Of a DNA stretch of 64,000 nucleotides, positions 4,091 through 64,000 are shown piece by piece (the first letter of the stretch is position 1; each line of letters starts with the position of its first letter). Under the pieces are notes generated by a model, which saw only the letters and a list, made by a program, of their open reading frames with translations, had not been told where the DNA came from and did not search any database. Location of the stretch: positions 372,001-436,000 of the forward strand of contig NC_088296.1 of NCBI RefSeq assembly GCF_032854445.1. Reading direction: 5' to 3'. The stretch comes from Liolophura sinensis (Eukaryota; Mollusca; Polyplacophora; Chitonida; Chitonidae). Position numbers and translations under genes: made by a program.

Positions 4091-4094
4091 TTAC

Positions 4095-4990: not shown

Positions 4991-5921
4991 TGTAAAATAG
5001 ACAGCATTACCGGGACGTTATCTGTATACATTCTAGTAAAGCTGGAAATAATCTGTGCAAATCCGTACATAATTTTAAGACTCGATTTACTTTTAGCACC
5101 ATTTACGTATACAGACATTCTTTAGCTTTGACGTCACGGGCATTTGATATAGGCTATCATATAACAAACGGGCTGACGTACATGGAAAAGGGGAACTGTA
5201 TACCCTATTCATCAAAGTTTGACTACCACAGTTTTATACTTGGAGCGGACAGCCGAACGTTGTTAAGTAAACAATAAATAGCGATACATGATCAGGGCAA
5301 TATTTTCGAGCTTTGTGTACCACAGGCGACACGTCAGCGCCAGTAATCTACCTTCAACATAACTCTGCATAAGGCCTTTCAAGGTCAAAGCTTCAGAATC
5401 TTGATAACGTAGAGGCATACCATCGTCCTGTATATATACATGTAGTGACAAGATCGGCATAATTAAACAGTATGAACGTGGACCAAGTCTAGTCGTTTTC
5501 CTTGACGTAACTATTCAGACTGTTCATCGACAGTGTTACAGGTTCACACACAAAATGATGGTCTATACATTGACACGCCCCAGTCGTCATTCTGCAATTC
5601 ACATCACTGCCTTTTTTGCCTGATTCTGCAGAAACCATGGTGCTAGGGGGCGTGGAATTTTTGCTACTATACAAGCATTTACTTGAACAGTTAGAATAAA
5701 GCCCTGACTGAGGTAAATTGACAAAGGGTCGTATTTCACCATTTGCATGTGACCATTTGCCAGCTATCACATTGTCGTCGCTGCTCTGGTTTTTCTCTCT
5801 ATACTGTACGTCCTACCTGTACCGGTACTGTGTAGATGTAAGGACGACTCGACCAACTAAACAGTGTCTGACAGTCGAACAAGTAAAGACATCTTCCTAA
5901 CTTGACAAATATTTCCACCCT

Positions 5922-6409
5922 AAATACACCTATCCCGTCTTGAATGACTTACCTGTCGAGACAAATACCACCTGGCTTCACAAGTATATAAAATTGAACA
6001 CATTGAAATAAAAAATACTTAGTTCTGAGAATTGGACATGATCTATTCAGGGGAGGTAAATCCCTCATGATGTTTGTTCACATTTATACTCTGTGATATC
6101 TCAACAATGGTTTGCACAGCTCGCCTTCAAGTTTATATGCGAATGTCATATTTCAACAAACAATCAAATACACCTACCCGTCCTAAATTACTTACCTGTC
6201 GACACAAATACCCCCGTGCTTCACAAGTTGATAAAATTGAGCAGATTGAAACAGAAAAGGCTTAGTTGTGAGAATTGAGCGTGTTCTATGCAGGGGAGGT
6301 AAATCCCTCATGATGTTTGTTCACATTCATACTCTGTAATATCTCAACAATGGTTTCCACAGCTCGCCTTCAAGTTTATATGCGAATGTCATATTTCAAC
6401 AAACAATCA
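5922..6409. repeat. 244-bp tandem duplication inside module A, copy 1
   Basis: aaatacaccta begins at 5922 and again at 6166, and both repeats run through catatttcaacaaacaatca. Copies 3 and 4 have a single version, so this arose before the copy 1/copy 2 duplication but after those lineages split. Confidence 0.85.
6196..6311 (-). other. exon-like open segment ending in a splice donor, module A of copy 1
   Basis: Minus strand: ATG AGG GAT TTA CCT CCC CTG, open for 38 codons to GGTATTTGTGTCGACAG|GTAAGT, phase 2. The peptide starts MRDLPPLHR and ends VKHGGICVD. The same peptide frame and donor recur in module C (10319-10449). Not matched to any family; may be a relic first exon or a conserved transposon segment. 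Identical at 17105-17220. Confidence 0.3.
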
Positions 6410-7049
6410 ATTTCCTACAAAATTACCTCAGTAGATGTGTTCAAATCGTGTGTAGATTGAAAGTGTTATCACTTTCGGCTCCAAAAGGAATACGTTGAAA
6501 ATATAGTTGAGAAATGTAGGATAAATATTCTGAATCCTGTACCGGTATTAGGAGATTAGGCTATAGCTACGACAATTGCCCATTAAATTTAAGTGGCATT
6601 ACCCTCGTGGGGTCACTAAGGTGAAATCAGGCCTCTAGGCAACCTTGTCGTACTAGTCAACTAACCTTAAGCTCCCCCATGTGGCCCCTGTGAATATAGG
6701 CCTATAGACCGATATCTCCTCGAGTGGTGGAGTAGCCTACCTGTTGATCATGGAGTACCTGTTTGCTGTGGACTGCGAACCTATTGGAAGAGAACGTGCT
6801 CCCAGTGGCCGAAGGGAGGTTAGACCTGTAAGATTTTCAAGCCCAACACCACACATGGCCCTTGTTTAGGTAGAGGTGGGAGGTTGGATTGGTCCTATTC
6901 GACCAATAGGCTGGAGTAGATATACTCCGAACTAAAATCTCAAGGGGTTGTAAATGTCAGGTGATTCACAAATCAAAAAAAAGAAAAACAAAAACATGAC
7001 GGTAACGACGTTTAATAAACCTTAGTCGATCTCAGTTTGCCGCACAGTG

Positions 7050-7275
7050 TCCAAGTAGACATGCATATACCTAATCCGACTAGGTGCGTTACATGCCACA
7101 AACTTGGACAAGGCAATGACCAGTATACATATAAATTGGTTTACTTTCCTTGTGCAGGTGATGTTCGACGAAGGCGCTACACAGTAAAGTCTATGTATGC
7201 TTTGTTTGACAGCGTCACTGGCGATGCCATCATAAAATACTTCAGGGCCATTGGCCTATATCATAAAATATGAAT
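7050..7275 (+). pseudogene. internally deleted LINE: ORF1 zinc-knuckle piece joined to the ORF2 C-terminus, copy 1
   Basis: Open frame with IPNPTRCVTCHKLGQG, like the gag-type knuckle of LINE ORF1 (NPxRCxxCxxxGHG in relatives; the His is Gln here). It runs straight into VRRRRYTVKSMYALFDSVTG and YFRAIGLYHKI plus stop, the LINE 3' end. The same ending occurs at 35800-35940. Most of the element is missing. Confidence 0.65.
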
Positions 7276-7282
7276 TCTAATT

Positions 7283-7377
7283 ATCAGTAGTAGTAGTAAT
7301 AATAATTATAATAATAATAATAGTAATAAAAACAATCATTATCATCACCACCACCACCATCGTCGTCGTCGTCGTCG

Positions 7378-7408
<31 letters not shown>

Positions 7409-7409
7409 A
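7283..7409. repeat. compound trinucleotide repeat, copy 1
   Basis: Follows the LINE stop: AGT and AAT units, then (CAC)n, (CGT)n of about 7 and (CAT)n of about 11. May have grown from the LINE's own 3' repeat tail. The Met- and Asp-rich frames over it are artefacts. Confidence 0.9.
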
Positions 7410-7499
7410 CATATGGTGCATTTTATTAAATATAATACGCCCGTATCCAAAATATCTTTCACTGCTTCTAATAATTATCACTAAAATGTTCCTTTAAAA

Positions 7500-8014
7500 A
7501 TTTGGGCTAATTTTGGCAGAGGTGTTTTATAGTGATATTCGATAGATATATAGCTCCCATCCATAATTAGCAAGTCTGTGTGCAAAAACGACATTGTCGC
7601 TATTTAAATGTATATTGTCTAGCCAAGCCTGTTGACTACAGTGTCTATGATGGTAACTTGACTCTATATACTGTATGATAATTGGGCCAAACCTCTGGAA
7701 TATCTCTATCTGCAGAAGTTTATACAATATATAAAAGATATAATAAACACATTACTAATAACGACACGAGCATTTCTTACTTATATTAAAACAGTTATAA
7801 ACCAAGGTCAAATTTTGTATTCCAGCTCCCAGTGTTTTTTTATGTTATTGTCAGAAAGCACAGAAGTAAAGACTACAATACACCTGCTTATCAATCAAAA
7901 CGATTAAACCGTAAAATGTTGACATCGTTCCAACGTGTGAAGTACATGACCGATTAGATACAGCGCTATAACAGGGACAGCCTGTCATAGCACCGTATCA
8001 ACTCAAAGCCTGGA
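7500..8014. other. unrecognised monomer DNA
   Basis: Starts at the inferred monomer boundary; counterparts 18409-18923 and 49103-49613. No coding or RNA signal is seen. Confidence 0.6.
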
Positions 8015-8026
8015 TTGGAGATATGT

Positions 8027-8306
8027 TTATTTTTTTAATTGGTGTTTTACGCCGTGCTCAAGAATATTTCACTTTTACGACGGCGAGCAGCAATATATTG
8101 AGAGGAAACCCACCACCATCCGCAGGTTGCTTCCAGGCACGTACGGCTGGGGGGGAGGGGGGGGGGGGGGGGGGGGGGAAAGCCGGCATGAGCTGGACTT
8201 GAACTGACAGCAATCGCATTGGTGAGAGGAAACTGGGTCATTGCGCTGCGCTAGCGCGCAAACCGACTGAGCCACGGAGCCCCCCCCTCCCCCCCCCCCC
8301 ATCCCT
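8027..8306 (-). mobile_element. full-length SINE S3 with target-site duplication, copy 1
   Basis: Flanked by the 12-bp direct repeat ttggagatatgt (8015-8026 and 8307-8318). Reverse orientation: AATA-type tail, ggtgttttacgccgtgctca, core, then the tRNA-like head ending cgactgagccacggagcccc. Interrupted by a ~28-nt G run at 8151-8178 and preceded by a long C run at the head end. Confidence 0.9.
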
Positions 8307-13833: not shown

Positions 13834-16073
13834 ATTCGAATTATTATTATTCCCGACAGTTATGTGATACATTTTATGAGAAAACAACAACTGGTACATT
13901 CCCGAAACTTTAGAATGTTTTAGGAAAGTATCTGAAGTTGTGCATTTTGACATTTGGTGACATTTGGTCGACTGACTTAGCGGTCATATTGGATTTCTGT
14001 TAACCTAAACAAATCTTCCTCTCCAGAACCACTGATTCGATAGAGCTGAAAATTAAACTGCATTTACACAAAGCCTAGGCACATTCAGGGTGATAACGCA
14101 AACTTTCTCGTTTGACAATTGTACAAGCTCGCTGTTGGGTGAAAATGTCTTGTGACACAAAACCAGAGAGAACGTGAAATGAATCAGAAGTTCAGGAAAC
14201 CCACAAAGAGCTCAAAATGTAGTAGATGTACGTACAAGAAACCCATAGTGAAGACAAAACACATCTGACATACATGTACAAAAAACCCCAAAGGGAGTAC
14301 AAGATGAATACTATTGTTTGTTGTTTTACTGCTTATTAATATTGTAACAAACAAAAAAAGGCACATGGCCATTTGTGTTGAAGTGATCATGTAATATCTG
14401 TAATAACCTAAGGGCCTTACATGTTCAGTTACTCAGGTTCCCCCAGAACAGGTTTCCACCCGTTAGCATAATTTTGTACCCAGTTTTATGAGGTAATCAC
14501 CAAAAGTCTTCAGATAAGAAGTATCAATCTAACCGGAAAAGATTTATTTCTTTTAAAAGCTAATTTGTTTTAGTTCACCCATATAATTGCATTTTTTATT
14601 TTCTGTCATAAAGCCACCCTTCAAATGATGATAAAGTATTACAGCGTCTGCTAACACAGTATCCCTTTCTCCAAGAAACAGCTGATTCATGTGATGTAAG
14701 TTTGTACGGCGAGGAGGTTCAACATATAATCGTTAACTTTCAGTTATTTATACCATTTTCCAACTTATGTATCTTATAAAAGCGACATACATCCTTCAGT
14801 AATCCATTAAAGGTAGTGCCCATTTTTTAGAGTGAGTTATCTCCCAAAACATTTCCAACCATATATGTAGGGTAACATATAATACTTTTTGTCACTATTG
14901 CAATGTTCCTTCAAAAAGCATTGTAAGACCTATATCAGTGTGTGTGCCTCGCCTCCCTTGTAGGTCATCCCTTCTGCTCAGTTAGAAATATGGTGATTTT
15001 TACTATTGTCATGCCATAAAGAGGAGTGTATGAAAAAGAATCTCGCGATATTAAAGCAGGGGAAAAATATCCACCAGAAGGAATGTTGGAACTTGACCAT
15101 TTTGATAATGAAGTTATATATATGGTCTACAGTGTTGTTACCGGTTTGAAGACACCCCAAAATCCTGATTGGAGATATACCACCTCAGGTAGACTGTATA
15201 AGCAGGTCATCTTCAGCTGTATCTTCCCAAAGACAACCCTAGATAATCCATAAGCAAACTTACACGGTTAATGGAGGGTGTCAGGACGACAGTATACATA
15301 CATGCATGCCTTTTTATAGCTTAGCTAGAGCTGTCTGTGTGAAGAGTGTAGAATTATTAATACATGTAGTCTCTTAAATATAGATACATATATATCAGCT
15401 AAGTTAGAAAGTAAGCAAATTTTGCTTTTGTCATACCATAAAACGATATAAAAGAAAGGGGCGGGGGGGGGGGAGGGCAACCCAGAAGCAATGCTGGATC
15501 TTGACCGTTTTGATCATGGAAACAAACGTATGTCTACAGTGTTGTAAGGGGGAGAATTTAAAGACACCTCAAAATCATGATTGGAGAGATGTTACCTCAG
15601 GAAGACTATAGAAGTTTGACAGCGCCAGTTGTATCTAGGTCATATATAAGCAATGGAGATATACATGTATGTATTTGGCTATCCTGACGGGATAAGCTGT
15701 GTTAGCAGGCCCTATATATGTACCCTCGCGCAGTGATCACGGATCATGGAGGGTGTAACATATTGGACAATGATGACGGCAGTATACATACATGTAGGCC
15801 TTTCTATAGATTAGCTAGAGCTGTCTGTGTTAAGAGTATGCAGTTAACAATACATGTAGCCGCTTAGTTATGGATACATATACATCTGGGTCTTAAAATT
15901 GTAAAATAGACAGCATTACCGGGACGTTATCTGTATACATTCTAGTAAAGCTGGAAATAATCTGTGCAAATCCGTACATAATTTTAAGACTCGATTTACT
16001 TTTAGCACCATTTACGTATACAGACATTCTTTAGCTTTGACGTCACGGGCATTTGATATAGGCTATCATATAA

Positions 16074-17959
16074 CAAACGGGCTGACGTACATGGAAAAGG
16101 GGAACTGTATACCCTATTCATCAAAGTTTGACTACCACAGTTTTATACTTGGAGCGGACAGCCGAACGTTGTTAAGTAAACAATAAATAGCGATACATGA
16201 TCAGGGCAATATTTTCGAGCTTTGTGTACCACAGGCGACACGTCAGCGCCAGTAATCTACCTTCAACATAACTCTGCATAAGGCCTTTCAAGGTCAAAGC
16301 TTCAGAATCTTGATAACGTAGAGGCATACCATCGTCCTGTATATATACATGTAGTGACAAGATCGGCATAATTAAACAGTATGAACGTGGACCAAGTCTA
16401 GTCGTTTTCCTTGACGTAACTATTCAGACTGTTCATCGACAGTGTTACAGGTTCACACACAAAATGATGGTCTATACATTGACACGCCCCAGTCGTCATT
16501 CTGCAATTCACATCACTGCCTTTTTTGCCTGATTCTGCAGAAACCATGGTGCTAGGGGGCGTGGAATTTTTGCTACTATACAAGCATTTACTTGAACAGT
16601 TAGAATAAAGCCCTGACTGAGGTAAATTGACAAAGGGTCGTATTTCACCATTTGCATGTGACCATTTGCCAGCTATCACATTGTCGTCGCTGCTCTGGTT
16701 TTTCTCTCTATACTGTACGTCCTACCTGTACCGGTACTGTGTAGATGTAAGGACGACTCGACCAACTAAACAGTGTCTGACAGTCGAACAAGTAAAGACA
16801 TCTTCCTAACTTGACAAATATTTCCACCCTAAATACACCTATCCCGTCTTGAATGACTTACCTGTCGAGACAAATACCACCTGGCTTCACAAGTATATAA
16901 AATTGAACACATTGAAATAAAAAATACTTAGTTCTGAGAATTGGACATGATCTATTCAGGGGAGGTAAATCCCTCATGATGTTTGTTCACATTTATACTC
17001 TGTGATATCTCAACAATGGTTTGCACAGCTCGCCTTCAAGTTTATATGCGAATGTCATATTTCAACAAACAATCAAATACACCTACCCGTCCTAAATTAC
17101 TTACCTGTCGACACAAATACCCCCGTGCTTCACAAGTTGATAAAATTGAGCAGATTGAAACAGAAAAGGCTTAGTTGTGAGAATTGAGCGTGTTCTATGC
17201 AGGGGAGGTAAATCCCTCATGATGTTTGTTCACATTCATACTCTGTAATATCTCAACAATGGTTTCCACAGCTCGCCTTCAAGTTTATATGCGAATGTCA
17301 TATTTCAACAAACAATCAATTTCCTACAAAATTACCTCAGTAGATGTGTTCAAATCGTGTGTAGATTGAAAGTGTTATCACTTTCGGCTCCAAAAGGAAT
17401 ACGTTGAAAATATAGTTGAGAAATGTAGGATAAATATTCTGAATCCTGTACCGGTATTAGGAGATTAGGCTATAGCTACGACAATTGCCCATTAAATTTA
17501 AGTGGCATTACCCTCGTGGGGTCACTAAGGTGAAATCAGGCCTCTAGGCAACCTTGTCGTACTAGTCAACTAACCTTAAGCTCCCCCATGTGGCCCCTGT
17601 GAATATAGGCCTATAGACCGATATCTCCTCGAGTGGTGGAGTAGCCTACCTGTTGATCATGGAGTACCTGTTTGCTGTGGACTGCGAACCTATTGGAAGA
17701 GAACGTGCTCCCAGTGGCCGAAGGGAGGTTAGACCTGTAAGATTTTCAAGCCCAACACCACACATGGCCCTTGTTTAGGTAGAGGTGGGAGGTTGGATTG
17801 GTCCTATTCGACCAATAGGCTGGAGTAGATATACTCCGAACTAAAATCTCAAGGGGTTGTAAATGTCAGGTGATTCACAAATCAAAAAAAAGAAAAACAA
17901 AAACATGACGGTAACGACGTTTAATAAACCTTAGTCGATCTCAGTTTGCCGCACAGTGT
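16074..17959. repeat. module A, copy 2
   Basis: Same as 5165-7050, including the 244-bp duplication (16831-17318). Confidence 0.8.
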
Positions 17960-18184
17960 CCAAGTAGACATGCATATACCTAATCCGACTAGGTGCGTTA
18001 CATGCCACAAACTTGGACAAGGCAATGACCAGTATACATATAAATTGGTTTACTTTCCTTGTGCAGGTGATGTTCGACGAAGGCGCTACACAGTAAAGTC
18101 TATGTATGCTTTGTTTGACAGCGTCACTGGCGATGCCATCATAAAATACTTCAGGGCCATTGGCCTATATCATAAAATATGAAT
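17959..18184 (+). pseudogene. deleted LINE, copy 2
   Basis: Identical to 7050-7275. Confidence 0.65.
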
Positions 18185-18191
18185 TCTAATT

Positions 18192-18286
18192 ATCAGTAGT
18201 AGTAGTAATAATAATTATAATAATAATAATAGTAATAAAAACAATCATTATCATCACCACCACCACCATCGTCGTCGTCGTCGTCG

Positions 18287-18317
<31 letters not shown>

Positions 18318-18318
18318 A
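18192..18318. repeat. compound trinucleotide repeat, copy 2
   Basis: Same unit order and length as at 7283. Confidence 0.9.
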
Positions 18319-18935
18319 CATATGGTGCATTTTATTAAATATAATACGCCCGTATCCAAAATATCTTTCACTGCTTCTAATAATTATCACTAAAATGTTC
18401 CTTTAAAAATTTGGGCTAATTTTGGCAGAGGTGTTTTATAGTGATATTCGATAGATATATAGCTCCCATCCATAATTAGCAAGTCTGTGTGCAAAAACGA
18501 CATTGTCGCTATTTAAATGTATATTGTCTAGCCAAGCCTGTTGACTACAGTGTCTATGATGGTAACTTGACTCTATATACTGTATGATAATTGGGCCAAA
18601 CCTCTGGAATATCTCTATCTGCAGAAGTTTATACAATATATAAAAGATATAATAAACACATTACTAATAACGACACGAGCATTTCTTACTTATATTAAAA
18701 CAGTTATAAACCAAGGTCAAATTTTGTATTCCAGCTCCCAGTGTTTTTTTATGTTATTGTCAGAAAGCACAGAAGTAAAGACTACAATACACCTGCTTAT
18801 CAATCAAAACGATTAAACCGTAAAATGTTGACATCGTTCCAACGTGTGAAGTACATGACCGATTAGATACAGCGCTATAACAGGGACAGCCTGTCATAGC
18901 ACCGTATCAACTCAAAGCCTGGATTGGAGATATGT

Positions 18936-19209
18936 TTATTTTTTTAATTGGTGTTTTACGCCGTGCTCAAGAATATTTCACTTTTACGACGGCGAGCAGC
19001 AATATATTGAGAGGAAACCCACCACCATCCGCAGGTTGCTTCCAGGCACGTACGGCTGGGGGGGAGGGGGGGGGGGGGGGAAAGCCGGCATGAGCTGGAC
19101 TTGAACTGACAGCAATCGCATTGGTGAGAGGAAACTGGGTCATTGCGCTGCGCTAGCGCGCAAACCGACTGAGCCACGGAGCCCCCCCTCCCCCCCCCCC
19201 CCCATCCCT
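18936..19209 (-). mobile_element. full-length SINE S3 with target-site duplication, copy 2
   Basis: Same insertion and TSD (18924-18935, 19210-19221). The G run is shorter than in copy 1 and the C run longer, which explains most of the 6-bp change in offset. Confidence 0.9.
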
Positions 19210-33899: not shown

Positions 33900-35640
33900 G
33901 TATATTTATATGTGGTCTACAAGATAATTTATTATCCAATATTATACTCCAAAATTTACTTTCACCAACAATTTTAATCTGTTTACCACAAAATTTAAAT
34001 CGGGTTCAAGATGAAATTTCCGTTTGTTAAAAAAATGCATACCAACGATTTTAATCTAAAACAGTCTTCAATTGGCCATTTCTCGATTTTATTTAGACAA
34101 AGCCAGAACTGACGTTCAATATTATTCATATTTTTAGCTCGGTAGCATATAAGGATGTCATCAACATATAAACAACCCTCTGTGCCCGATATTAAGGTTT
34201 TTCCTAAGCTAGTTATTTTTATGCTAAACAGAGTTGGTGATAAAATACTGCCCTAGGGTACACCATTTCCTGCTTATTCGAGTCGGAAAGAGTAGACTCA
34301 CCTGAACCTGAAACTGACGATCAGATAAAAATTCTGATATGAACATCGGTTATCGACATTTAAGACCCATATCAGCAAGGTCTTTTAAAATACCATATTT
34401 CCATGTGGTGTCGTAGGCCTTGTTCAAGGTCGGAAAATATCGACACCACATGTTCGTTATTGATAAAACCACGAAAAAAGGTTTCGAATCGAACAAGGTG
34501 ATCCATAGTAGATCTACCTTGCCGAAAACCACACTGTATATTAGATATTAAATTGTTGGTTTCAAGAAACCAAACAAGCCTATCATTAATCATCCGTTCC
34601 ATAGTCTTACAGACACAGCTGGTAAGAGGTATGGGACGGTAATTAGACGGATCAGTATGATCCTTACCCGGTTTGGGAACCAGGATGATACACGCCTCCC
34701 TCGATGGGGGTTGAAAATTATTAGTTATCCAAATATCATAAGACAGTCCAAGAGAGTCTCCAGTGGATCAGGCGGTAAATGGTTCAGAAACTTATAATAT
34801 ACGTTAGCAGGGCCACGCGCAGTATCGTGTGCCAGTAATTCAATTTTAAATTCAGCGATAGTAAAAGGACGATTATAATTTCTAAATTTTTAGCAGAAAT
34901 TTTCTCCTTCTGGTTTTTAATATGCTGGAATTCTGCAGTATAATTCTCAGAAAAAGATTTGTTGGAAATTGTCTCTGCTAATTTATTTGCTATATCAGAT
35001 GGAAAGGTAAATATATTATCTTCATCTTTTATAAGCTAGAGTTTTGCTTTATTATGTTTGCCCTTAAGTTTCTGAACCTTGTTCCAGACCTTACGCATGG
35101 GTGTTTTTGACGTAGTGTCCGAAAGAAAGTTCCGGCAAAAAGATCGTCATTTGGACTTGAGGAATCGACGAGCTTTAGCTCTAAAACTACAAACCTGGTT
35201 TAAATTATCATCAGTAGAATAATGATTAAATCTGCGTTCAGCCTTTTTCCGGCCCTGGAGGACTTCACGACATTCATTGTGGTACGAGGGTTTACTTTTG
35301 GACTTGGATTTGTCGAGGTCTTAGATATACTTCTATCGGCAGCTCGTAAAACAAGCTCATTACATTTTATGGTAGGGTCATCTGCTGCACTGAGAATCTC
35401 TGGAGTGATATTAGCCTCGCAGATCATGTCAAAATGTGATCCAATCTGCTTTATCGAACGTCCTCCTATCTACGTGTTCTAAAGAAGTAGAAGTGATATG
35501 TTTTAGGGTAAGAGGAAAATGGTCGCTACCACGAAGCTCACTAGTACTTTCTCAGAAAAATCAAGGAAAAGTGATTAAATTAATTAAAGGAGGTAATATA
35601 ATAAATTGCACGCTATTCGCCCTGTCATTGGCTATAATTC
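33900..35640 (-). pseudogene. LINE ORF2 segment (endonuclease end, linker, RT), inverted
   Basis: Read 5'->3' on the minus strand: SSELRGSDHFPLTL (endonuclease SDH motif, near 35540-35500), a basic linker, NVYYKFLNHLPPDPLETLL, KTMERMINDRLVWFLETNN, CGFRQGRSTMDHL, LNKAYDTTWKYGILKDLADM, GSILSPTLFSIKI and a YVDD box (CLYVDDILICYR). Frameshifts and stops break it. Jockey/CR1-like; same family as the monomer LINE fragments. Confidence 0.88.
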
Positions 35641-36889: not shown

Positions 36890-37880
36890 GAAACCAGGAA
36901 TAAGATGGAGAAGAAACAAAGTGCACCCGAGAAGATACAACTCATGTAATATTTGACCCCAGAGATAAGAAGAAACGAAACTGTCCACAACTGAGGTTAC
37001 ACAAATCAGGTAGCCTAACATTTGAATAAGGTGTAAGAGAGGAAACGCACCACAGCAGAGAAGATGGGTAGGCCTACTTGTACCATGTAATGTGTGAATC
37101 AGGGGTCATCCAGAGAAGAAACCCATCACACGGGAAAACCATCTCTCCTGAGAAGATATACATCAGGTAATGTGTGAACCCGGTATTAGAGAGACAGGAA
37201 AACCAGCCGTCCTTAAAAAAGTCACACATCAGGTAATTTCTGGGCTCTATATTACAGAGAGAGGGAAACCATCTCCCCTGAGAAAATACACATTAGGTAA
37301 TGTGTGGACCCGGTATTATAGAGAGAGGGGGAAACCAGCTCTCCAGAGAAAATACACATCAGTTAATGTGTGGGCCCGGTGATAGAAAGAGAGGAAAACC
37401 AGCTCCCCTGAGAAGACAGACATGAGTTAATGTGTGAACCCGGTATTAGAGAGGAAAACCGGCTCTCCAGAGAAAATACACACCAGTTATTGTGTTGACC
37501 AGGTATTACAGAGAGAGGAAAACCAGCTCTCCAGAGAAGATACACATCAGTTAATGTGTGGACCCGGTGAAAGAAAGAGAGGATTACCAGCTCCCTCGAG
37601 AAGATACACATCAGTTAATGTGTCAACCCGGTATTAGAGAGGAAAACCAGCCCTCCTAAGAAAATACACATCAAGTAATGTGTTGACCAGCTATTATAGA
37701 GAGAGGAAAACCAGCTCTCCAGAGAAGATACACATCAGTTCATGTGTGGGCCGGGTGACAAAACGAGATGACAACCAGCTCCCCTAAGAAGATACGCATC
37801 AGTTAATGTCAGGGCTCGGTATTAGAAAGAGAGGAAACCCAGCACTACTGATAACATACCCATGAGGTAACTTGAATATG
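36890..37880. repeat. ~65-bp tandem array
   Basis: About 15 units of 60-66 bp with the phrases gaggaaaaccagctc, agagaagatacacatcagtt and aatgtgtggacccggtatta. Units are cleanest at 37150-37800. The unit length varies, so frames drift and the short ORFs over it are not credible genes. Confidence 0.9.
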
Positions 37881-42494: not shown

Positions 42495-43075
42495 TCAGGG
42501 AGTGCTTATCATATCACAGAGAACTTGAGGCAGAGTCACAGAGTCACCCGTTACCAGACGAGCAGACACAGACACAGACACAGGTCCAGACCAGACAAAC
42601 CCAACCCATGGCACGAGAGGCTCTGTGACGATAACATCACTGACAGTGTACATTACCTGGTTGTTGTCACAGTCCAGGACTGTCAGTGTGTGGTCATCAC
42701 AGTCCAGGTACACACCCAGGTGATGAGGTCGTGTGTAACGTCTGTACTGTAGATAGCCAGGTTTGATCTCACCACCACCACGGTGTCTATAACACTTGAC
42801 CTCATCACCACGGTAGCCCATCCCAGTGTACCAGGTGTTAAGGCCAGGGTCTGTCTCCTCACTCACATTACAGCTCTCCTGTGTCACTCCTATATAACAG
42901 TCAGAGCCATTTGAACAGGTGATGTGTATCTCCCAGTAGTACCTGCCCGTCTGGTAACACCCGTCTGTCACAGCTCTCCTCCACACATAGGACAAGCCTT
43001 CACCCTTTACCACACAGCCGCTGTCAGTGATTCTCAGCTCACTGCCGTCTGTCTCTGTAAATCTCAGCGTCGGCT
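42495..43075 (-). CDS. TRIM coding exon 6: SPRY domain and stop
   Basis: Acceptor TTTTTGCAG; two bases complete the split Lys codon, then 192 codons and a stop. SPRY landmarks: the LRFTETDG start, YYWEIHI, CYIGVTQE, a GVYLDCDDHTLTV-like strand and VPWVGFVWSG near the end. The single large SPRY exon is typical of class IV TRIM proteins. Confidence 0.93.
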
Positions 43076-46000
43076 CTGCAAAAACACAACAGAAGCAGCA
43101 TAAACAACAGCAAACCATAAACACACGCTGTAAGACTGAGGTGTAAATACCTGTACACATACCGTGGTTTTACTTGCTCAACACAATCTCTTGAAATAAA
43201 ATGACATATATTTTTGACATGAATGTAATTTATATACAGATCTCTGTCATTTTCAGCCAGTTTAAAAGAGTTGAGCTTAGACAAGAACTGTATCCATGAC
43301 TAAATAACTGGTACGACATAGACATAGACTAAGTACTGGGTTAAAATACAGGCTTTTAGCAATCTAATTTGTTTAAAACTTATCACTTACAACAAGAATA
43401 ATACCTTTCTCTATCCAGATATTGGTTTTAGTTGTCAGTTATGGCACATTTGAACACTCAATTGACTATCAAGCTGCAGTAGGCCTGTTGTGGATTCATT
43501 CGTGGAGTATCGAAGCTGTCTGTGTAATAAGGGAGGTAACTCGCCACACATAACTTACCAAGTGACTTTCATTGTCACAATACCCCCAAAGACTATTTAA
43601 TCCACCAGAAGTAGTCAGCTAAATTTTCTTCAATTTGCCATTTTTTTTTTAAAGATACCTAAATATTTAAATATTAACAACAAACTTATATTGAGGGAGG
43701 AAGGACATGTAAACCTCATACTCTTATACATGGAATCTATATCCTTGAACATTAATAATGAAACAGATATGAGGGTATTTTTTCTCTTTTTCTCCCCTTT
43801 GAAATAAGTGTTTGACTACATTTGAATCTAGGAAATAATGGCGAATTTTTACTTGAATACATGTGTCAGTAATAATTAGGGGGCCTCCGTGGTTCAGTTG
43901 GTTAGCGCGCTAGCGCAGCGTAATGAAACAGAAGGCTCTTACCATGCAATGCGGTCGCTGTGAGTTCAAGTCCAGCTCATGCTGGCCTCCTCTTCCGCCC
44001 TTCGTATAAAGGTCTTTCAGCAGCCTGCAGATGGTCGTGGGTTTCCACCGGGCTATGCCCAGTTTCCTCCCACCATAATGCTTGCCACCGTCGTCTAAGT
44101 GAACTATTCTTGAGTACCGCGTAAAGCACAAAAAATTGAGTGCAACGTGTTATCTGTCCTGCTCTAAGAGTGTAGACCTGCTCTTGTACACATGGAGTAA
44201 ACATCACCCAGACACCACAGAATACACAAACACCACTCCTGATCTAACATTACACGCGCTGATTTGCAAATATACAAGGTAGACACCGATGGCTTCACTA
44301 CCATCTGTTCTGATCTAATTTTGCAGCTGCTGATATATAATTCTGCTATGTACCTTCCTCTTTTTGTGACTTCTGGGCCAACTGTACATTAATCTGAATC
44401 TCCTGTGCACATCCTACTGTGTACCTCACATTAGTCTGTGTCGTCTGTGCCCACCCTACTGTGTACCTCACATTAGCCTGTGTCTTCTGTGCCCACCCTA
44501 CTGTGTACCTCACATTAGTCTGTGTCGTCTGTGCCACCCTACTGTATACCTCACATTAGCCTGTGTCGTCTGTGCCCACCCTACTGTATAGCCTACCTCA
44601 CATATTAGCCTGTGTCTTCTGTGCACATCCTACTGTATAACTCACATTAGCCTTTGTCTTCTGTGCACATCCTACTGTATAACTCACATTAGCCTGTGTC
44701 TTATGTGCACACCCTACTGTATAACTCACATTAGCCTGTGTCTTATGTGCATACACTACTGTATAACTCACATTAGCCTGTGTCTTCTGTGCACATCCTG
44801 CTGTATACCTCACATTAGCCTGTGTCTTCTGTGCACACCCTACTGTATAACTCACATTAACCTGTGTCTTCTGTGCACACCCTACTGTATATCTCACATT
44901 AGCCTGTGTCTTCTGTGCACATCCTACTGTATAACTCACATTAGCCTGTGTCTAATATGCACACCTTACTGTATACCTCACATTAGCCTGTGTCTTCTGT
45001 GCATATCCTAGTGTACACCTCGCATTAGCCTGTGTCTTCTGTGCATACACTACTGTATAACTCACATTAGCCTGTGTCTTCTGTGCACATCCTGCTGTAT
45101 ACCTCACATTAGCCTGTGTCTTCTGTGCACACCCTACTGTATAACTCACATTAGCCTGTGTCTTATGTGCATACACTACTGTATAACTCACATTAGCCTG
45201 TGTCTTCTGTGCACATCCTGCTGTATACCTCACATTAGCCTGTGTCTTCTGTGCACACCCTACTGTATAACTCACATTAACCTGTGTCTTCTGTGCACAC
45301 CCTACTGTATAACTCACATTAGCCTGTGTCTTCTGTGCACATGCTTCTGTATATCTCACATTAGCCTCTGTCATCTGGGCAAACCATACTGTATATCTGA
45401 CAATAATTTGTATATTCCGGGCACACACTACTGTATACCTCGCATTAGTTAGCATCATTTTACCTGCCCTATCTCTTGCCAAACATTAATGTGTATGGTT
45501 TATACTATCTGTACTTTTTGCAAACTCTTCTCACTTTCGTCTCTCTTGGAATACTGTTCATTTTCTTGGCACGCCACGGACATATCGGTTTTGTTTTCTT
45601 AACAGAGTCTATCGTGTGTTTTGCAGGTACACAGCCGTTCGCCCTCTCCATTTTTGTCTGTGTCTTCGATGCACACACTAATGTAAACCCTTCAGTCCTT
45701 TATGTCGTCTAAGCACACCCTACTGTATGCCTTTTATACATAAGAACTTACTTGTAACACGTAGGGGAGATATTTGTCCACCGACTGCTGCTTCTAAGTC
45801 CTGACATTCTAGCACTGTTTCTTTCACAGTCACCTGTCTAGGAACAACTTGGTCATGATGGACAGAAGCTAGAAGCTTCTGTCTGCTGACATCATGTTTC
45901 TCCAGATCTGCTCTTATCCCATTCAGCTGGTCATCAGTTCTGCGAGAAGAGGAGAGAAAACAAAGAGACACAGTCGTGTAGTGATCTTGTGTCCGCGCAG

Positions 46001-48802
46001 TTATAAGAATGACATGATGTACTATTCCTAGTAGGTTAGATCTAATTTGTCTGGACAAACGTAAGATTGAACATTAGATATATCTCACACTTGAGTCATG
46101 TTTTGGACAACTACAGCTTACAGAAACACATCTGCTGACAATAGTCACGTGCGCATGTATAACAAACATGGGGAGGTATAACACATTTATACATACGTTT
46201 TGGTGAAGTCCGTGGAACCCTGTCAACAAACAGAATTGAGCCTACATATAAAATCACGTAAAGAAGAAACAGATACCTCTCCAGAGACACACAGTACACA
46301 AGCACCCTTGGCTTTTACCTCCAACATCTAGACCATTCCCTGATCTATTACATAGCCCACATCAGTTCTCAATTCCGCTTAATAAATTCCATTGTGCTTC
46401 ATACAATACAATTTCCCCTTATTTGCAAATCTGTTTACATACAAACCTTGTTTTATTTCTTTTTTTAAAAAACAGCATACAATATGTTCTTTTTGACATT
46501 ACATGTTGCTACTTTATTGCTTTAATCGGACCGAGGGGTACCACTGAGCATAATAAAGCTGTTGAACTCAGGATCTAAAACTTTAGCAGATCTGGCAGCA
46601 TGAGGTGGATTTGAACACGTGATCACAGTTCCTAAGGGTGGTTTGGGTCTTAGGTAACGTCTGTAGTAGAGGCAGCTGAACTACTGTTAGAGATTGTGAC
46701 TTATATGCTTGACTTACCTGCAAAAACTCCACGTCCATTGATGCTAATAAATCATTGGAAGCCTGTACCATCCTCTCCATTTCCTGAGCCTGTAGCTGTA
46801 AATGTTTGAGTATGGCGCTGCACTCGACACTCCACTGTGAATAGCGGGTTCTTATGCCATCTAAGGAGTGTTGTCTCCAGGCTTGTAAAGCTTCCAGGGC
46901 TGCACAATAAGCCTTTTCCACTTCCTGAGTGTGAAGTTCCTGGTTTTCCTGCCAAACAGAAAATTCGTTTATTACCTCATCCACACCTTTAGAACTGCGT
47001 GTTCAAGAAATTATATATGTATGTGTAAAAGGGTGAACTATACGCGCCACATAACAATGTGTCTCCGGGGTGGAGGGGATTTCCCTTTAATCCAGTGATG
47101 TACATGCAAGTCTCCACTCAAAACCCCAAAGGTACGTCGGTCAACCTCTAAAAGGGTCGTGCCATCAAAACTGATGCTCCGAGCATGGTGAAGCCTTAGA
47201 TGCTTCCAACCTCAGACACCTGGGACTGGTTCAAACCCGAACGTTGTCGCCCCATCAGATCAAATGGTGACGTGTATATATTATAGATTATATTATGACA
47301 GCGCATGATCGGAGATGATATATCAAATGAAGTTGTCTGAGGTGGGCATATCGCGTGTGTGTCACTGAGAAGAAAGTCATAATAATGATACGATAGTCTG
47401 ATGAGACAAGCCAGAAACAAGTAAATAGACTCGTCCTTCACACAAATACATCACCGCATCAGTCCGTGTATTCCCCTGTTTAAGTTCTGATAAAAAGTCG
47501 TCAATATTCGGGTTTAACTCTTTAATTGTAATCTACATATATAATATGTGACAGAATCAGCTTTAATAGCAATATTCTACATAGTCAAAATGAGCCACAA
47601 CAACATGAGACTGAACGGGTGTCATGGAAAATACCAACCTGTATCTTACTGTGCAGCCTCAGAACTCCGGACAGTGATTCCTTAGTTTCGCCTAAGACTT
47701 TCTCCAGTTCATTAGTCCTGCTCAAAACAGCTGGCTGTAATGGAAAAAAAACGCTACATTAAAAAATCCGCCTTTCAAATGACTCACTACGGTACAGGAC
47801 AAAATGTCCCATTCTTCACTACACATCATAAATTTTAGGTCAGTAAACAGTTCCAAATCATGCCATATTTATTTTGATTATCGACTTATATACTAGCATG
47901 GTACACGATTTAGATAGTGATTTAAGTTATGCGACCAGAACATTCCTTGTTTCTTTCTAACATCATTGAAAACTGTTTATCACTTTTCTTTGCATGATTC
48001 CAAAGTAATTTTGAACTTACACAATTTCTTAGTTTTTCGTGGTTTGTGTTAATAGTCGTTTTGGGAAATGACCACACGAGTATTGACTCCATTTCGGTTG
48101 ATGTCTGATATACGAATATCTTTTTCACATTACCTTGTCATTCTCAGCTGCTGATGGTATATCCCGCATAGCGTGTCCCTGATGCTCAACCACACACCCC
48201 ACACAGATCACCATTCGACACGGTTCACAGTACAAGTCGAATGACCGACCGTGTCTGGGGCATGACGGCTGCTGGGTTGATTGGTGGTCCCTACTGACTT
48301 GGCCCTGTGAGGTTTCCTGAGAGAGGTACTCCAGGGGCGAAATCAGTTCGTGACGTTTCAGAGGACCCCTCATTGGGTGACAAATAACAAGACATTCCTC
48401 ACAGTAGAACACACCACAGTTGGTACAAAACTTGACAGCTTTGACGTGATTACCTTCCTCACACAGAGAACAATATGGGATGTCATCCTCAACCTTTACA
48501 CCAGATGAGAACCTCTCCACAATTTCTGCTAGATGAAAGTTAGGAGGTAGACCAGCCACACCTTCTCTCCCCAGACTGGTCGGTGCCCGACACACAGGGC
48601 ATGCTATCAGCTGATGAACGTCCTCATACCCAGTGCTGCCGGAGTTCTCGTCTGTCTGTACATGTTTGAACTTGTCAGCGTACGAATCAATGCATTCCCT
48701 ACAAAAACTGTGCTGACAGGGTAGCATTACTGGTTTCCGGAATGTTTCCATGCATATCGAACAGATGAGAACATCATCCCGCTCTTGCATACTTTCGGCC
48801 AT
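42495..48802 (-). CDS. TRIM-family RING E3 ubiquitin ligase (RING, two B-boxes, coiled coil, SPRY), six coding exons
   Basis: Splicing 48802-48134, 47734-47639, 46948-46718, 46219-46197, 45939-45752 and 43075-42495 on the minus strand gives one open frame of 595 codons ending in a stop. Every junction has GT/AG and the phases match (0,0,0,2,1). Seen: a C3HC4 RING (C14, C17, C29, H31, C34, C37, C68, C71), B-box 1 (about 111-151), B-box 2 (C181, H184, C192, C195, C200, C203, H207, H210), a helical coiled-coil region (about 224-400) and a C-terminal SPRY domain (about 404-590). Family knowledge: TRIM proteins dimerise through the coiled coil, conjugate ubiquitin through the RING and recognise targets through SPRY, often in innate immunity. 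The substrate cannot be inferred. An acceptor-like TTGCAG just upstream of the ATG (near 48821) suggests a 5' UTR exon. A candidate AATAAA lies at 42051-42046. No frame damage is visible. Confidence 0.93.
43879..44136 (+). mobile_element. tRNA-derived SINE, near full length, in the last TRIM intron
   Basis: Begins with a tRNA-like head (A box TGGTTCAGTTGG, B box near GAGTTCAAGTCC), then the conserved core (cagtttcctcccaccataat) and the 3' motif ttcttgagtaccgcgtaaag. This is the best example in the window of the family found in all monomer copies. It is antisense to TRIM. Confidence 0.85.
44350..45735. repeat. 42-bp minisatellite in the last TRIM intron
   Basis: About 30 tandem units of 42 bp, each with the phrases cctactgtataactcacatt and agcctgtgtcttctgtgcac. 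Units are cleanest at 44,600-45,360 and degenerate at both ends, with traces up to 13-15 bp from TRIM exon 5. Because 42 is a multiple of three, frames stay open on both strands. The minus (sense) frame reads AQKTQANVSYTVGC per unit, with only a few stops over 1.1 kb. It has no splice phasing with the TRIM exons, so I treat it as intronic. Confidence 0.92.
45752..45939 (-). CDS. TRIM coding exon 5 (linker between coiled coil and SPRY)
   Basis: 188 nt between acceptor CTCGCAG and donor GTAAGT. It starts with one base completing a Thr codon, reads TDDQLNGIRADLEKHDVSRQ and onward, and ends one base into a Lys codon completed by the SPRY exon. Confidence 0.85.
46197..46219 (-). CDS. TRIM coding exon 4 (23-nt microexon)
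   Basis: 23 bases between acceptor TTGACAG and donor GTATGT, encoding GSTDFTK plus two bases of the next codon. The length is the family standard, and the 2-nt remainder is exactly what exon 5 needs to stay in frame. Confidence 0.88.
46718..46948 (-). CDS. TRIM coding exon 3 (231 nt, coiled coil)
   Basis: Acceptor TTTGGCAG, donor GTAAGT, 77 codons in phase 0, with long helical heptad-like sequence (for example ILKHLQLQAQEMERM). 231 nt is the classic third-exon length of TRIM genes. Confidence 0.92.
47639..47734 (-). CDS. TRIM coding exon 2 (96 nt, coiled coil)
   Basis: Acceptor TTACAG, donor GTTGGT, 32 codons in phase 0. The peptide is charged and leucine-rich (SRTNELEKVLGETK is part of it). 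96 nt is the classic length of the second TRIM exon. Confidence 0.9.
48134..48802 (-). CDS. TRIM coding exon 1: RING and both B-boxes
   Basis: 223 codons, ATG at 48802, ending in codons for NDK followed by the donor GTAATG. It encodes the RING and both B-boxes in one exon, as is usual for TRIM genes. The start is chosen because the RING begins at residue 14 and the frame carries no earlier conserved domain. Confidence 0.93.
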
Positions 48803-49625
48803 TATTAGTTTTTTTTTCCTGCAACAAAAACGGCAAATCGCTCAGATGGGCACCTATAAGAATGTTCCTATTTACAAAATCATTAACGTTCAAGACAGCA
48901 CACAACCTCCATCTGTTCCCGTGTTCCCACAACACACTGAGTACAGTACTTTTTATCGCTATTCTCCAATTCTCGTTTAAGAAGCATTAAAGTGTCTATA
49001 CATGCACGAGGAGAGTAAACCTCGCTTTCCTGAGAAAGAATCCATTCTGTTCAGTTAGAAATTTGGCCATTCTTCCTTTTATTGCGCTTTTTGGCAAAAA
49101 TCTGGTCAGGCTAATTTGGGCAGAGGTGTTTTATAGTGATATTCGATAGATATATAGCTCCAATCCATAATTAGCAAGTCTGTGTGCAAAAACGAGATTA
49201 TCGCTATTTAAATGTATATTGTCTAGCCAAGCCTGTTGAATACAGTGTCTATGATGGTAACTTGACCCTATATACTGTATGATAATTGGGCCAAACCTCT
49301 GGAATATCTCTATCTGCAGAAGTTTATACAATATATAACAGATATAATAAACACGACATTACTAATAGTGACACAAGCATTTCTTACTTATATTAAAACA
49401 GTTATAAACCAAGGTCAAATTTTGTATTCCAGCTTCCAGTGTTTTTTTTTTAGAAAGCACAGAAGTAAAGACTACAATACACCAGCTTATCAATCAAAAC
49501 GATTAAACCGTAAAATGTTGACTTCGTTCCAATGTGTGAAGTACACGACCGATTAGATACAGCGCCATAACAGGGACAGCCTGTCATAGCACCGTATCAA
49601 CTCAAAGCCTGGATTGGAGATATGT

Positions 49626-60033: not shown

Positions 60034-60090
60034 ATGGGCATGATGGACTTCGACTTTTTGAACGATGTGAAGCGGATGAATAAAAGACAG
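60034..60090 (+). CDS. SEC11A: SEC11A coding exon 1
   Basis: 19 codons reading [19 protein letters not shown], followed by donor GTTTGT, phase 0. [13 protein letters not shown] matches the conserved SEC11A N-terminus. Confidence 0.95.
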
Positions 60091-63000
60091 GTTTGTGTGA
60101 CTTTTCACGTTTTTGTGCAGCTGTTCCAGCGGACTGAACGTTTTCTGTCAGCTTGAAACTGTCCGATTTACAGCGACAGCTGGCCGGCGTTACAACAACA
60201 ACACGTGTTAATTATGTTAGATATGCTGAAAAGTAAACGTTTTGAAGGGATTTGTTAAGCTGAGGTTGCTGTTTACATCACGTGGAAGACGGTGTAACAT
60301 CAGTTCATTTAACTAGATGAATCTGAATGAGCTTCTGAGAAGGAGGTCAGTGCCAACAATCTCAGATTGACTTGCCGCAACTATAGCCCTGATGACAACG
60401 CTTGCAGGGCCTGACGTAGTCATGGATCAGTCATCTTTAGCCCGGTAGGATGAATTGTAAAATTTCGGAAAACAGTCGATTACCAATGCACCTCGCCCAT
60501 CCAGGCACTCTTTTGATTTGCTTAGGGTCTTAGGGCACCAGACCGTTAAAATCCAGAGATGTCGATCATCCCAAAGGTAAATATCCATCCATTTTACCCT
60601 GACTTTGTCACCCTCATTTGCAAAATGGCCGCTATCTACACGCCTCGCATGCACAACCAGGCAGCTGGATATGAAACGGCTGACCCTTACTGGCTTCATT
60701 TGTGGAGGTATGGCATGTTAAAACAACAGCACATGCTCTAGTTTAGTTCCCTAACGCACTAATTGTTCCATGTAAAGTAAACGGGACTCAAACCAGCCTA
60801 CTCATGATCGCATAACAACAAAAGGATTTAATAACAAGCATAGTCGAAGGGGAGGATATTTTCGTATCCCGTTGCTGGGTCACCTTGTAGATCGTGGCCA
60901 TTTCAGAAATGAGAAAGTCTGCAGAGAGGGGGACTTCAATAAAAATGGATGGATATTTACCTTTGGAACAATCAACATCTTGGAATTTTAACTGTCAGGT
61001 GCCCTAAAACCCTAAGCGTTGTAAAGGGGTGGCTGGATGGGCGAGGTACATCAGTAATAGACACTTTTCGTACCAGAGTAAAGGGAACTGATCCATGACT
61101 ACACAGGGCCCTACGAGCGTTGTCATCTCGGGCTACTGCAACTACTGACCTAAAGTACCTAACCATCATCACTAATGCTATCCAGTTTAAGGTTGGAAGT
61201 TCGTCCCCACAAGTCTGGTCTCAATTTAACCCAGGCATACATTATACTGTCACCTTGGCAATTGAAATTCCATATGAAAGTAGGATGGATACCTACTCAC
61301 CTGCACCCCCCCCCCCCCCCCCCCCCCCGCAAATCCTGTTTCCCTAGACAGGTGGAAGTTACTATACCTGAGGTAGGGATTTCAACTCACCTGGTGTACG
61401 CCCTCCTGCATCTGAAGCTAGTTCAGTTGTAAGCCACCTGGCAGATGAAAATCCTAACCACCTGGTGTTTGCCATTGTAATTGATTGCTTATGTCACGGC
61501 TTTTTGGACATCAGAAAATCCTTGACCCTCATCTAACTCCCATTTCATTAAGCCTAGCGATAAAGTCAAAAGCCTGTGGTATGTCTCGGCTGCTCCATGC
61601 GTTGCTGCAGCTAAGATTTTGCACTCACATTCATCCAGTCCACAAGCCAGACAAAGTCTCCACCACTTAGGATTTTTTGCAAATGCGCATCATGGAGAAT
61701 AGCATTGGCGAGTCGTACTTTGATTTCATCGACTTTTCAAGAAACGTGTCACACTGCTAAACATGAAAAGAGATGTGGCAAAGCTTAGTGCGAATTTATG
61801 GTAAAATCATCCACAAATGTTTAGAGTCAAATGAACTATGACCTATGTGGTAGGTGTCCCAGTGTATATATTCGTCCATTATTGTTTAATTTGGTCCTTG
61901 TTTTGGTCACAAGTTAGACCAGCTAACAATACATGGGCTCCTGGTCACTTTTGCCACTGATACATATCTTAATGTTAACAGAAATTTATTGCTAGAGTAA
62001 CAGAATGGTGACCAGTTTATTTTCAGGTTAGCAAGTGGGAGATATTTCATTCCAAGTGAGTGACAGCAGTTATGTGAAATGTTCTTTACTACGGCGTAAA
62101 TCAAATAAATAAATAAATAAACATTCAGGCAAACATGTTTGTGAATGTGCACATAATCTTAAAATTTTGGCTTTAGCAATGGCCATTGTTTACATTGTAC
62201 GGTTTTACCTGCAACTTATCAGATTAGCTCGCAATGGCAGATGACGGATCGTAATAATTTACCTCTGGTAATAACAGCTGGCCGTAGGTTAGCTGTCCAG
62301 TAAGTAAATAACTATTTATGATGTGAGAAGATTAAAGTTGCATAAATGATTTTTATTTTACATTATACTAGGCCCACTACTTTCACTTTCACTTTTTTTT
62401 TTTTACTTTTCACTTTCACTTTTGCAGCTGTATTACCAAGTGTTAAACTTTGGTATGATCGTGTCTTCAGCATTAATGATCTGGAAGGGATTGATGGTCG
62501 TCACAGGCAGCGAAAGTCCCATCGTTGTTGTACTAAGGTAATTGGCAAAATCAGATTTTTTTTTGCTCTGCATTTCTATTATGGTTATTCTGTGAACAAA
62601 ATTAGTAAAAGGAATCCTCACTGGAAAATTCACCAAAGGTGTCACTCTCATGCCAGAGTGTTGTCCTTACAGCAATGCTGTCGTATTCTCGAATCTGGAT
62701 CTTGACGGTTTCACCGAGGCTTTATGTTGTTTAGTTTAGACGTGACTATTCTTATGTACTGTAATTCTGCAACCTTTTCGCATGTTTGGCAGGTGTTTAT
62801 TCAAGTATATTCTGAAGGCATTATGCTATGTAGACTGATAAAATTATGCTATTTTTGAAGCCAGCAAATTGGCCAATCCAACTAATATGGCTTTGTCTCC
62901 AAAATCAAATTTAGAATGTGGATAAATTGCACTGAAAGTTGGTCTTACAGATATGAAAAAGTTGAGGGATTTGATTATTGTTTTAGAATTTATCATGTAT

Positions 63001-63555
63001 AGGATGGTGGTAGTATTATGTGAGGATGCCCGGACCATGCGGTAGTCGTGGAGACCGTGCACGTTGGATTCGCCCAAGCTCTGCTTGGTTTTCTCCTACT
63101 ATAATGCTGAGTGAAACGCTGTACCCAAAAATAAACAAACAGATATTAGATTAAGCAAACTAGCCTGTGGCTGCTGTAAACAGTTTATTATCATTAAGGC
63201 TCCCAGAACTGGAGAAAGCAAGGATGTACAAAGCCCATGTTCAGGGCTGGAATTGAACCCTTGCCATGTAAACCGACACATTACTCTAATGGTTTAATGG
63301 TCAGTGTCCTAATAATTGGCCCCTGCCCCGCTGCCCCACTGAACATAGAAGTGAAATGTTCATGAGTACAGTGTGAATCAATTAAAAACTTTTTGTTTGT
63401 TGCAGTGGCAGCATGGAGCCAGCATTTCACAGAGGGGATCTTTTGTTTCTCACAAACTACAAAGAAGAGCCGATCAGAGTTGGGGAGATTGTCGTATTCA
63501 AAGTCGAGGGCAGGGATATACCCATAGTACACAGAGTGCTCAAAATTCATGAAAA
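60034..63555 (+). CDS. SEC11A: signal peptidase complex catalytic subunit SEC11 (first three coding exons; 3' part beyond the window)
   Basis: Joining 60034-60090, 62428-62537 and 63406-63555 gives 105 codons plus 2 nt, colinear with the N-terminal part of SEC11A. Seen: a cytosolic start ending MNKRQ, a single membrane segment ([17 protein letters not shown]), [20 protein letters not shown] with the catalytic serine at S58, and [14 protein letters not shown] with the catalytic histidine at H98. Family knowledge: SEC11 is the ER-membrane subunit of the signal peptidase complex that cleaves signal peptides, using a Ser-His(-Asp) arrangement. The exon with the conserved GDNN region is not in the window. 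The frame is open upstream to an ATG at 59896, but similarity starts at 60034. Introns 1 and 3 are crowded with repeats. Confidence 0.95.
60370..61148. repeat. imperfect inverted repeat (foldback/MITE-like) in SEC11A intron 1
   Basis: The left arm (about 60370-60640) and the reverse complement of the right arm (about 60890-61148) share long matches: gtagtcatggatcag, cctcgcccatcca, ttagggcacc and aaaggtaaatatccatccat. The loop is about 250 bp. No transposase is seen. It may be a non-autonomous foldback element or an inverted local duplication; the transcript could form a hairpin. Confidence 0.8.
61306..61328. repeat. poly-C run in SEC11A intron 1
   Basis: An uninterrupted run of about 23 C. 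Homopolymer length is prone to sequencing error. Confidence 0.9.
62030..62121 (+). mobile_element. 3' relic of the SINE in SEC11A intron 1
   Basis: Only the tail is recognisable: a degraded gtgaaat...ttctttactacggcgtaaa followed by tcaaataaataaataaataa. Confidence 0.6.
62147..62265 (+). repeat. dispersed copy of a segment of the 10.9-kb monomer
   Basis: gaatgtgcacataatcttaa and the following ~110 bases (gcaatggcc, tttacattgtacggtttta, cctgcaact) match monomer position 9386-9500 and its counterpart at 50939-51057. So part of the monomer is an interspersed repeat. Confidence 0.75.
62428..62537 (+). CDS. SEC11A: SEC11A coding exon 2 (membrane segment)
   Basis: Preceded by a long pyrimidine tract and TTTGCAG; 36 codons plus AG, donor GTAATT. 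It encodes [20 protein letters not shown] and onward to SESPIVVVL; the split Ser codon is completed by the first base of exon 3. Confidence 0.96.
62998..63140 (+). mobile_element. degraded SINE in SEC11A intron 2
   Basis: Core traces (ggtagtcgtggagaccgtgc, gctctgcttggttttctcct, actataatgctgagtgaaac) end in a diverged tail, acccaaaaataaacaaac. The tRNA-like head is missing. Confidence 0.6.
63230..63300 (-). mobile_element. tRNA-like sequence, probably a SINE head
   Basis: The minus strand carries a B-box-like GGGTTCAATTCCAGCCC, with an A-box-like segment upstream around 63290. It lacks a clean cloverleaf and sits in SEC11A intron 2, so it is more likely a SINE remnant than a tRNA gene. Confidence 0.35.
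63406..63555 (+). CDS. SEC11A: SEC11A coding exon 3 (catalytic Ser and His)
   Basis: 150 nt between acceptor TTGTTGCAG and donor GTAAGT. It encodes [37 protein letters not shown] and LKIHE. Its last ~45 nt plus the donor form the unit of the tandem array that follows. Confidence 0.96.
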
Positions 63556-64000
63556 GTAAGTCCGAAGCAGGGATGTACCCATAGTACATAGTGCTCAAAA
63601 TTCATGAAAAGTAAATCTGAAACTGGGATATACCCATAATACATAGAGTGCTCAAAATTCATCATGAGTAAGTCTGAAACTGGGATATACCCATAGTACA
63701 TAGAGTGCTCAAAATTCATGAAAAGTAAGTCTCAAGCAGGGATATACCCATAGTACACAGAGTGCTCAAAATTCATGAAAAGTCTCAAGCAGGGATATAC
63801 CCATAGTACACAGAGTGCTCAAAATTCATAAAAAGTAAGTCTGAAGCAGGGATATACCCATAGTACATAGAGTGCTCAAAACTTATGAAAAGTAAGTCTG
63901 AAACTGCGTTGTACCCATAGTACATAGAGTGCTCAAAACTTATGAAAAGTAAGTCTGAAACTAAGATATACCCATAGTACATAGAGTGCTCAAAACTTAT
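63511..64000 (+). repeat. 57-bp minisatellite derived from the SEC11A exon 3 end and donor
   Basis: Nine units (most 57 bp, some 53-55) run from inside exon 3 to the window end. The first unit is the exon end itself (agggatatacccatagtaca ... gtgctcaaaattcatgaaaa) plus gtaagtc. Later units differ at a few bases, and most keep the AAAAGTAAGT donor context. Reading past the true donor meets TAA at once, so use of a downstream copy would truncate the protein. Confidence 0.95.

Follow-up and report, generated by a model that had tools for sequence, protein, structure and literature searches.

Near the right-hand edge of the DNA analyzed here, a 64,000-nucleotide stretch (referred to as the window; G+C content, 39.9%), an intron of a SEC11 gene opens with a ladder of splice donors, raising the question of how the ladder arose and which of its donors is used. 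SEC11 is an essential protease. The locus offers a natural test of donor choice among near-identical donors about 57 nt apart, in an essential gene in which use of any of the seven decoys in view is predicted to lead to the same truncated product.

We set the exon borders by homology and consensus, including the end of exon 3 at position 63555, and numbered the exons from the one that carries the start codon. The coding part of exon 1 (60040 to 60090, plus strand), which is followed by GTTTGT, was found by tblastn with the N-terminus of human SEC11A as the query (E = 8e-6) and joins in frame to exon 2 (62428 to 62537, plus strand, 110 nt), which ends in the donor AAG/GTAATT (the slash marks the splice site). 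Exon 3 (63406 to 63555, plus strand, 150 nt) contains the motifs GSMEP and IVHRV, which we take to hold the catalytic Ser and the catalytic His, respectively. Joined, exons 1, 2, and 3 make up a single 311-nt open frame that ends two bases into a codon. The product of exons 2 and 3 matched the Pfam domains Peptidase_S24 and Peptidase_S26 and aligned over its whole length with human SEC11A (79/86 residues identical, E = 2.8e-48) and human SEC11C (77/86 identical, E = 3.9e-48). Judged by these matches, the gene is an animal-type SEC11, which encodes the catalytic subunit of the signal peptidase complex. An earlier note on this DNA had assigned the array to exon 3 of SEC11A; the gene and the exon number hold, but the letter A is too specific, because the scores of 79 and 77 of 86 residues make "SEC11" the safer name.

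A minisatellite takes up the final 500 bases of the window. Tandem Repeats Finder placed it at 63510 to 63995, with a period of 57, 8.6 copies, and 89% matches, and an anchor search resolved nine head-to-tail units with anchor spacings of 57, 55, 57, 57, 53, 57, 57, and 57. The ninth unit ends at the window edge after 50 nt, so the array has at least nine units, at least eight of them beyond the original. When the whole window was searched with a 27-base unit probe and up to three mismatches, eight matches were found, all in the array, compared with none in 100 shuffles; unit 2 was missed because it carries a 2-base deletion. These three approaches confirm the nine-unit minisatellite that had been placed at 63511 to 64000, with its start moved to 63501 or 63510. 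An in-register start can be traced to 63501, where the sequence AAGTC is found that recurs one period later, at 63558, and the repeated piece takes in 46 nt of the exon and 11 nt of the intron or, alternatively, 55 and 2 nt. The earlier description of the unit as some 45 nt of exon end followed by GTAAGT was correct about its origin from an exon end and its donor and went too far in giving every unit a GTAAGT, which stands at only six of the eight visible unit ends. A search of the window against Rfam gave no matches.

All units lie on the plus strand. Unit 1 (63501 to 63557) comprises the end of exon 3 and the real donor, AAA/GTAAGT, with the G of its GT at 63556. The decoy donor of unit 2 (63558 to 63612, 55 nt), the unit with the 2-base deletion, is weakened to GTAAAT (63611), and that of unit 5 (63727 to 63779, 53 nt) has been destroyed by a 4-base deletion (GTCTCA, 63782). 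Unit 3 (63613 to 63669) has the decoy donor TGA/GTAAGT (63668). The decoy donors of unit 4 (63670 to 63726; donor at 63725), unit 6 (63780 to 63836; 63835), unit 7 (63837 to 63893; 63892), and unit 8 (63894 to 63950; 63949) match the real donor at all nine consensus positions, −3 to +6; like unit 3, each of these units is 57 nt long. Unit 9 (63951 to 64000) supplies the 50 nt up to the window edge. Among the decoys alone, GTAAGT is kept in five of seven.

We computed the pairing of these donors, unit 5 left out, with the end of U1 and scored donors with a donor matrix. The donors of units 1, 3, 4, 6, 7, and 8 all gave −5.6 kcal/mol, that of unit 2 gave −3.2 kcal/mol, and the donor of exon 2 gave −6.6 kcal/mol. 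On the donor matrix, the real donor ranked among the best 1.4% of the window's 3922 scored GT sites on the plus strand. When we simulated use of the seven decoys one by one, every product stopped at codon 105; the cause is the real donor itself, which is read in frame as AAG TAA. The predicted decoy product would lack everything encoded after exon 3, so that, among the visible donors, only the first can yield full-length SEC11. Older minigene work is reported to have found that, when two equal donors lie close together, the intron-proximal one is usually preferred; such a preference would favor the decoys and counts against use of the first donor, which makes the SEC11 locus a useful test case. 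The excerpts of PMC8724738 available to us do not contain this rule; they state that a downstream donor can raise factor recruitment to the upstream acceptor and help to define the exon. The RNA of 63501 to 64000 folded with a z score of −2.5, and none of 100 shuffles folded as well, a result that we do not take as a sign of selection because the repeats are lost in the shuffled controls. A palindrome, TTCATGAA, lies directly before the donor in units 1, 2, 4, and 5 of the nine, within 63501 to 63783; it is self-complementary, and units could pair with each other through it in RNA.

The units differ pairwise by 2 to 22%, with a mean of 12%. The first break may have been at 63501, with AAGTC serving as a 5-base microhomology, and a break at GCAGGG, at 63510, is as likely because columns 6 to 9 of the unit alignment separate the exon from the copies. 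In their exon part, units 2 to 9 showed 21 distinct substitutions relative to unit 1, of which 18 changed the residue and 3 were silent, compared with a silent share of 21.6% among all possible single changes; when columns 6 to 9 were excluded, 15 substitutions were left, 2 of them silent by hand count. Together with the two frameshifting deletions in units 2 and 5, these numbers, although small, fit copies that carry no sign of protein constraint, while the 15 residues encoded by unit 1 are almost identical to human SEC11A and SEC11C, as expected from the earlier claim that unit 1 is constrained and the others are free to drift.

Several features of the units bear on how the copies have behaved since. 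Between the linked pairs of sites at columns 10/12 and 46/48, each of the four possible combinations is present, which points to exchange between units. Column 18 is in conflict with both pairs; as it is a single site, its pattern may reflect recurrent mutation. The neighboring units 5 and 6, with a single difference in 53 bases, resemble the result of a recent local duplication. Tandem Repeats Finder also proposed a higher-order repeat of four units (224 bases), which we rejected because pairs four units apart (units 1 and 5, 4/53 differences; 2 and 6, 5/55; 3 and 7, 9/57; 4 and 8, 5/57) were not consistently closer than other pairs.

By its anatomy, the array belongs to a class of structure that has already been described in amphioxus, a point absent from the earlier note. 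The passages available from a 2010 study of amphioxus globins (PMC3087553) describe minisatellite-like tandem duplications of exon-intron borders, called mirages after earlier work on Adh3. The globin mirages, in BflGb6 and BflGb9, have units of 150 to 160 bp, and in BflGb9 it is the 3′ border of exon 2 that is duplicated; the Adh3 mirage units are given in the same passages as 10 to 72 bp (Canestro et al. 2002). According to the excerpts of a 2013 study of lancelet PGBD5 (PMC3902484), repeats of 60 bp and 108 bp abut 5′ splice sites, and TnC is cited as another case. In the text available from both papers, the authors report or suggest that mirages leave splicing undisturbed, as RT-PCR suggested for the globins (PMC3087553).

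As far as these excerpts go, the amphioxus mirages share with the SEC11 array units that are tens of bases long (as many as about 160 in the mirages), that lie across an exon-intron border, that in many cases keep their splice signals, and that are imperfect and show signs of exchange with one another. The SEC11 array consists of nine tandem units of 53 to 57 nt; it spans the exon-intron border of a real gene, since exon 3, its border placed by homology and consensus, ends in unit 1; and many of its units, though not all, keep the splice signal, GTAAGT being present at six of eight visible ends. It differs from the amphioxus cases in the gene concerned and in being known here from one DNA sequence alone. 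The mirages in these excerpts all come from cephalochordates. For the present DNA, SEC11 and the TRIM-type domains described below fit an animal source and no narrower group; these genes, the G+C content of 39.9%, and the mirage would each suit a lancelet, but to count the mirage in favor of that host would be circular. Human IFI6 (6-16), in which a minisatellite provides several donors (Turri et al. 1995, as cited in the portion of PMC4526556 available), likewise carries, at the end of an exon, tandem repeats that supply more than one donor site. According to that portion, however, the downstream repeats of IFI6 are donors in use that give rise to protein isoforms, whereas none of the seven SEC11 decoys gives a coding isoform and all can only truncate the protein at codon 105. 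Cases in which tandem duplication gave rise to an intron or to new splicing (Rogers; Zhuo 2007; Gao and Lynch 2009; all as cited in the excerpts of PMC3087553) are similar, as far as described there, in that the duplicated segment contains splice signals; the SEC11 array differs in lying within an existing intron, with no new intron position. In the text retrieved from the open-licence literature, the amphioxus and IFI6 cases were the only minisatellites found at borders or donors, and a search for SEC11 together with minisatellite matched a keyword index alone. SEC11 would be an added gene on the published list of border-spanning minisatellites.

We consider it likely that the SEC11 array is a mirage, that is, a tandem-duplicated exon-intron border, and that splicing most probably still takes place at the original donor. 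A segment made up of the exon 3 end (46 nt) and 11 nt of intron, or of 55 plus 2 nt, would first have been duplicated, and the array, whose anatomy is observed directly, would then have grown through slippage or unequal exchange until it had nine units or more. The first, original donor (63556) is most likely the one used, because a full-length product is needed and because published mirages are reported to be normally spliced, and the array would be a passenger in the intron, its intronic copies drifting and exchanging with one another. Transcripts arising from any use of a decoy would be expected to be destroyed by nonsense-mediated decay. This account assumes an intact SEC11 beyond exon 3, as the window ends inside the array.

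Two alternatives concern the origin of the array. That a preexisting repeat captured the exon is extremely improbable. The repeated exon part encodes residues common to human SEC11A and SEC11C, which indicates that the exon gave rise to the array, exon 3 being the older source and the array the product. The earlier note had named an equivalent array elsewhere as the sign of such a capture, and within the 64-kb window the 27-base probe found no second array of the unit; similarly, blastn of unit 4 against the window returned the array and four short matches with E values of 1.2 or more, and we found no related unit elsewhere in the window. It is also very unlikely that the array is an assembly artifact or a merger of haplotypes. 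One published amphioxus mirage was misassembled in a draft, according to the excerpts of PMC3087553, and a direct duplication within the window, with one mismatch, could be an uncollapsed haplotype, but the unit differences of 2 to 22% (mean, 12%) and the unit-specific deletions are unlike a stuttering assembly of one sequence.

Two further alternatives would give the decoys a function. The array could act as a copy-number-dependent poison switch, in which some transcripts would use decoys, acquire the codon 105 stop, and be degraded, with array length tuning SEC11 output. The identical early stop from seven of seven decoys and the GTAAGT kept in five of them, four of which match the real donor at nine positions, would suit such a switch; nevertheless, units 2 and 5 no longer have an intact donor, retention of the others is expected anyway because the units differ by only 12% on average, and the published mirages are reported, in the excerpts available, to be normally spliced, so we regard the switch as unlikely. 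Still less probable, in our estimate, is that the extra donors are uncut U1-binding sites that strengthen the definition of exon 3, like intronic U1 enhancers. Downstream of exon 3 there is indeed a series of donors whose computed U1 pairing is equal, and a downstream donor can raise factor recruitment to an upstream acceptor (excerpts of PMC8724738), but the sequence bears no sign of selection that keeps the decoys, and the real donor already ranks in the top 1.4% of 3922 GT sites on the donor matrix.

We tried 10 acceptor-donor pairs in the array as possible micro-exons, using GCAGG acceptors only. Six contained stops; the 4 free of stops were those of unit 1 itself, of unit 5 with its lost donor, and of units 6 and 7. 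Units 6 (63793 to 63834) and 7 (63850 to 63891) are potential micro-exons of 42 nt, stop free and bounded as GCAG/.../GTAAGT, which could extend the frame of exon 3 by 14 residues; neither is preceded by a good pyrimidine tract.

The window holds a second array near a likely donor. On the minus strand, Pfam identified a RING/B-box reading frame (48125 to 48841) and a SPRY reading frame (42495 to 43169), which may be parts of one TRIM-like gene. Between them lies an open frame (45720 to 46073, minus strand) with no Pfam match, which runs into a likely donor, CAA/GTAAGT, at 45751. An array of 25 copies of a 42-bp unit (44399 to 45448, minus strand), with 22 GTGAG sites, occupies a likely intron of this TRIM-like gene, and degenerate units of the same array (45658 to 45728, minus strand) begin 24 nt behind the likely donor, with a local alignment score of 59 compared with 29 for the best of 500 shuffles. 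The 42-bp array does not cross an exon-intron border and so is not a mirage as defined. That one 64-kb window has two arrays, each at a likely intron start, is suggestive, and together the arrays hint that array formation may have begun at donors repeatedly in this genome. The bolder reading, that splice donors are hotspots that seed tandem arrays here and feed gene evolution, with the SEC11 array as a stock of near-ready exons or as a length-set control of SEC11 output, seems unlikely to us.

Other repeats were seen elsewhere in the window. The direct duplication mentioned above spans about 4.6 kb (3543 to 8171 and 14452 to 19080, 10,909 bases apart, with its one mismatch at 3694) and could be either a recent duplication or an uncollapsed haplotype. 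It includes two 243-bp tandem copies at 5922 to 6410, copied at 16831 to 17319, each with CGACAG/GTAAGT on the minus strand; we identified no exon beside the donors of the repeat at 5922 to 6410. A 64-bp minisatellite (37133 to 37870, 11.6 copies) has acceptor-like stretches, TTCTCAGG, on the minus strand in several units. A reverse transcriptase fragment at 34372 to 34767 on the minus strand (RVT_1, E = 7e-10) is likely to be the remnant of a retrotransposon.
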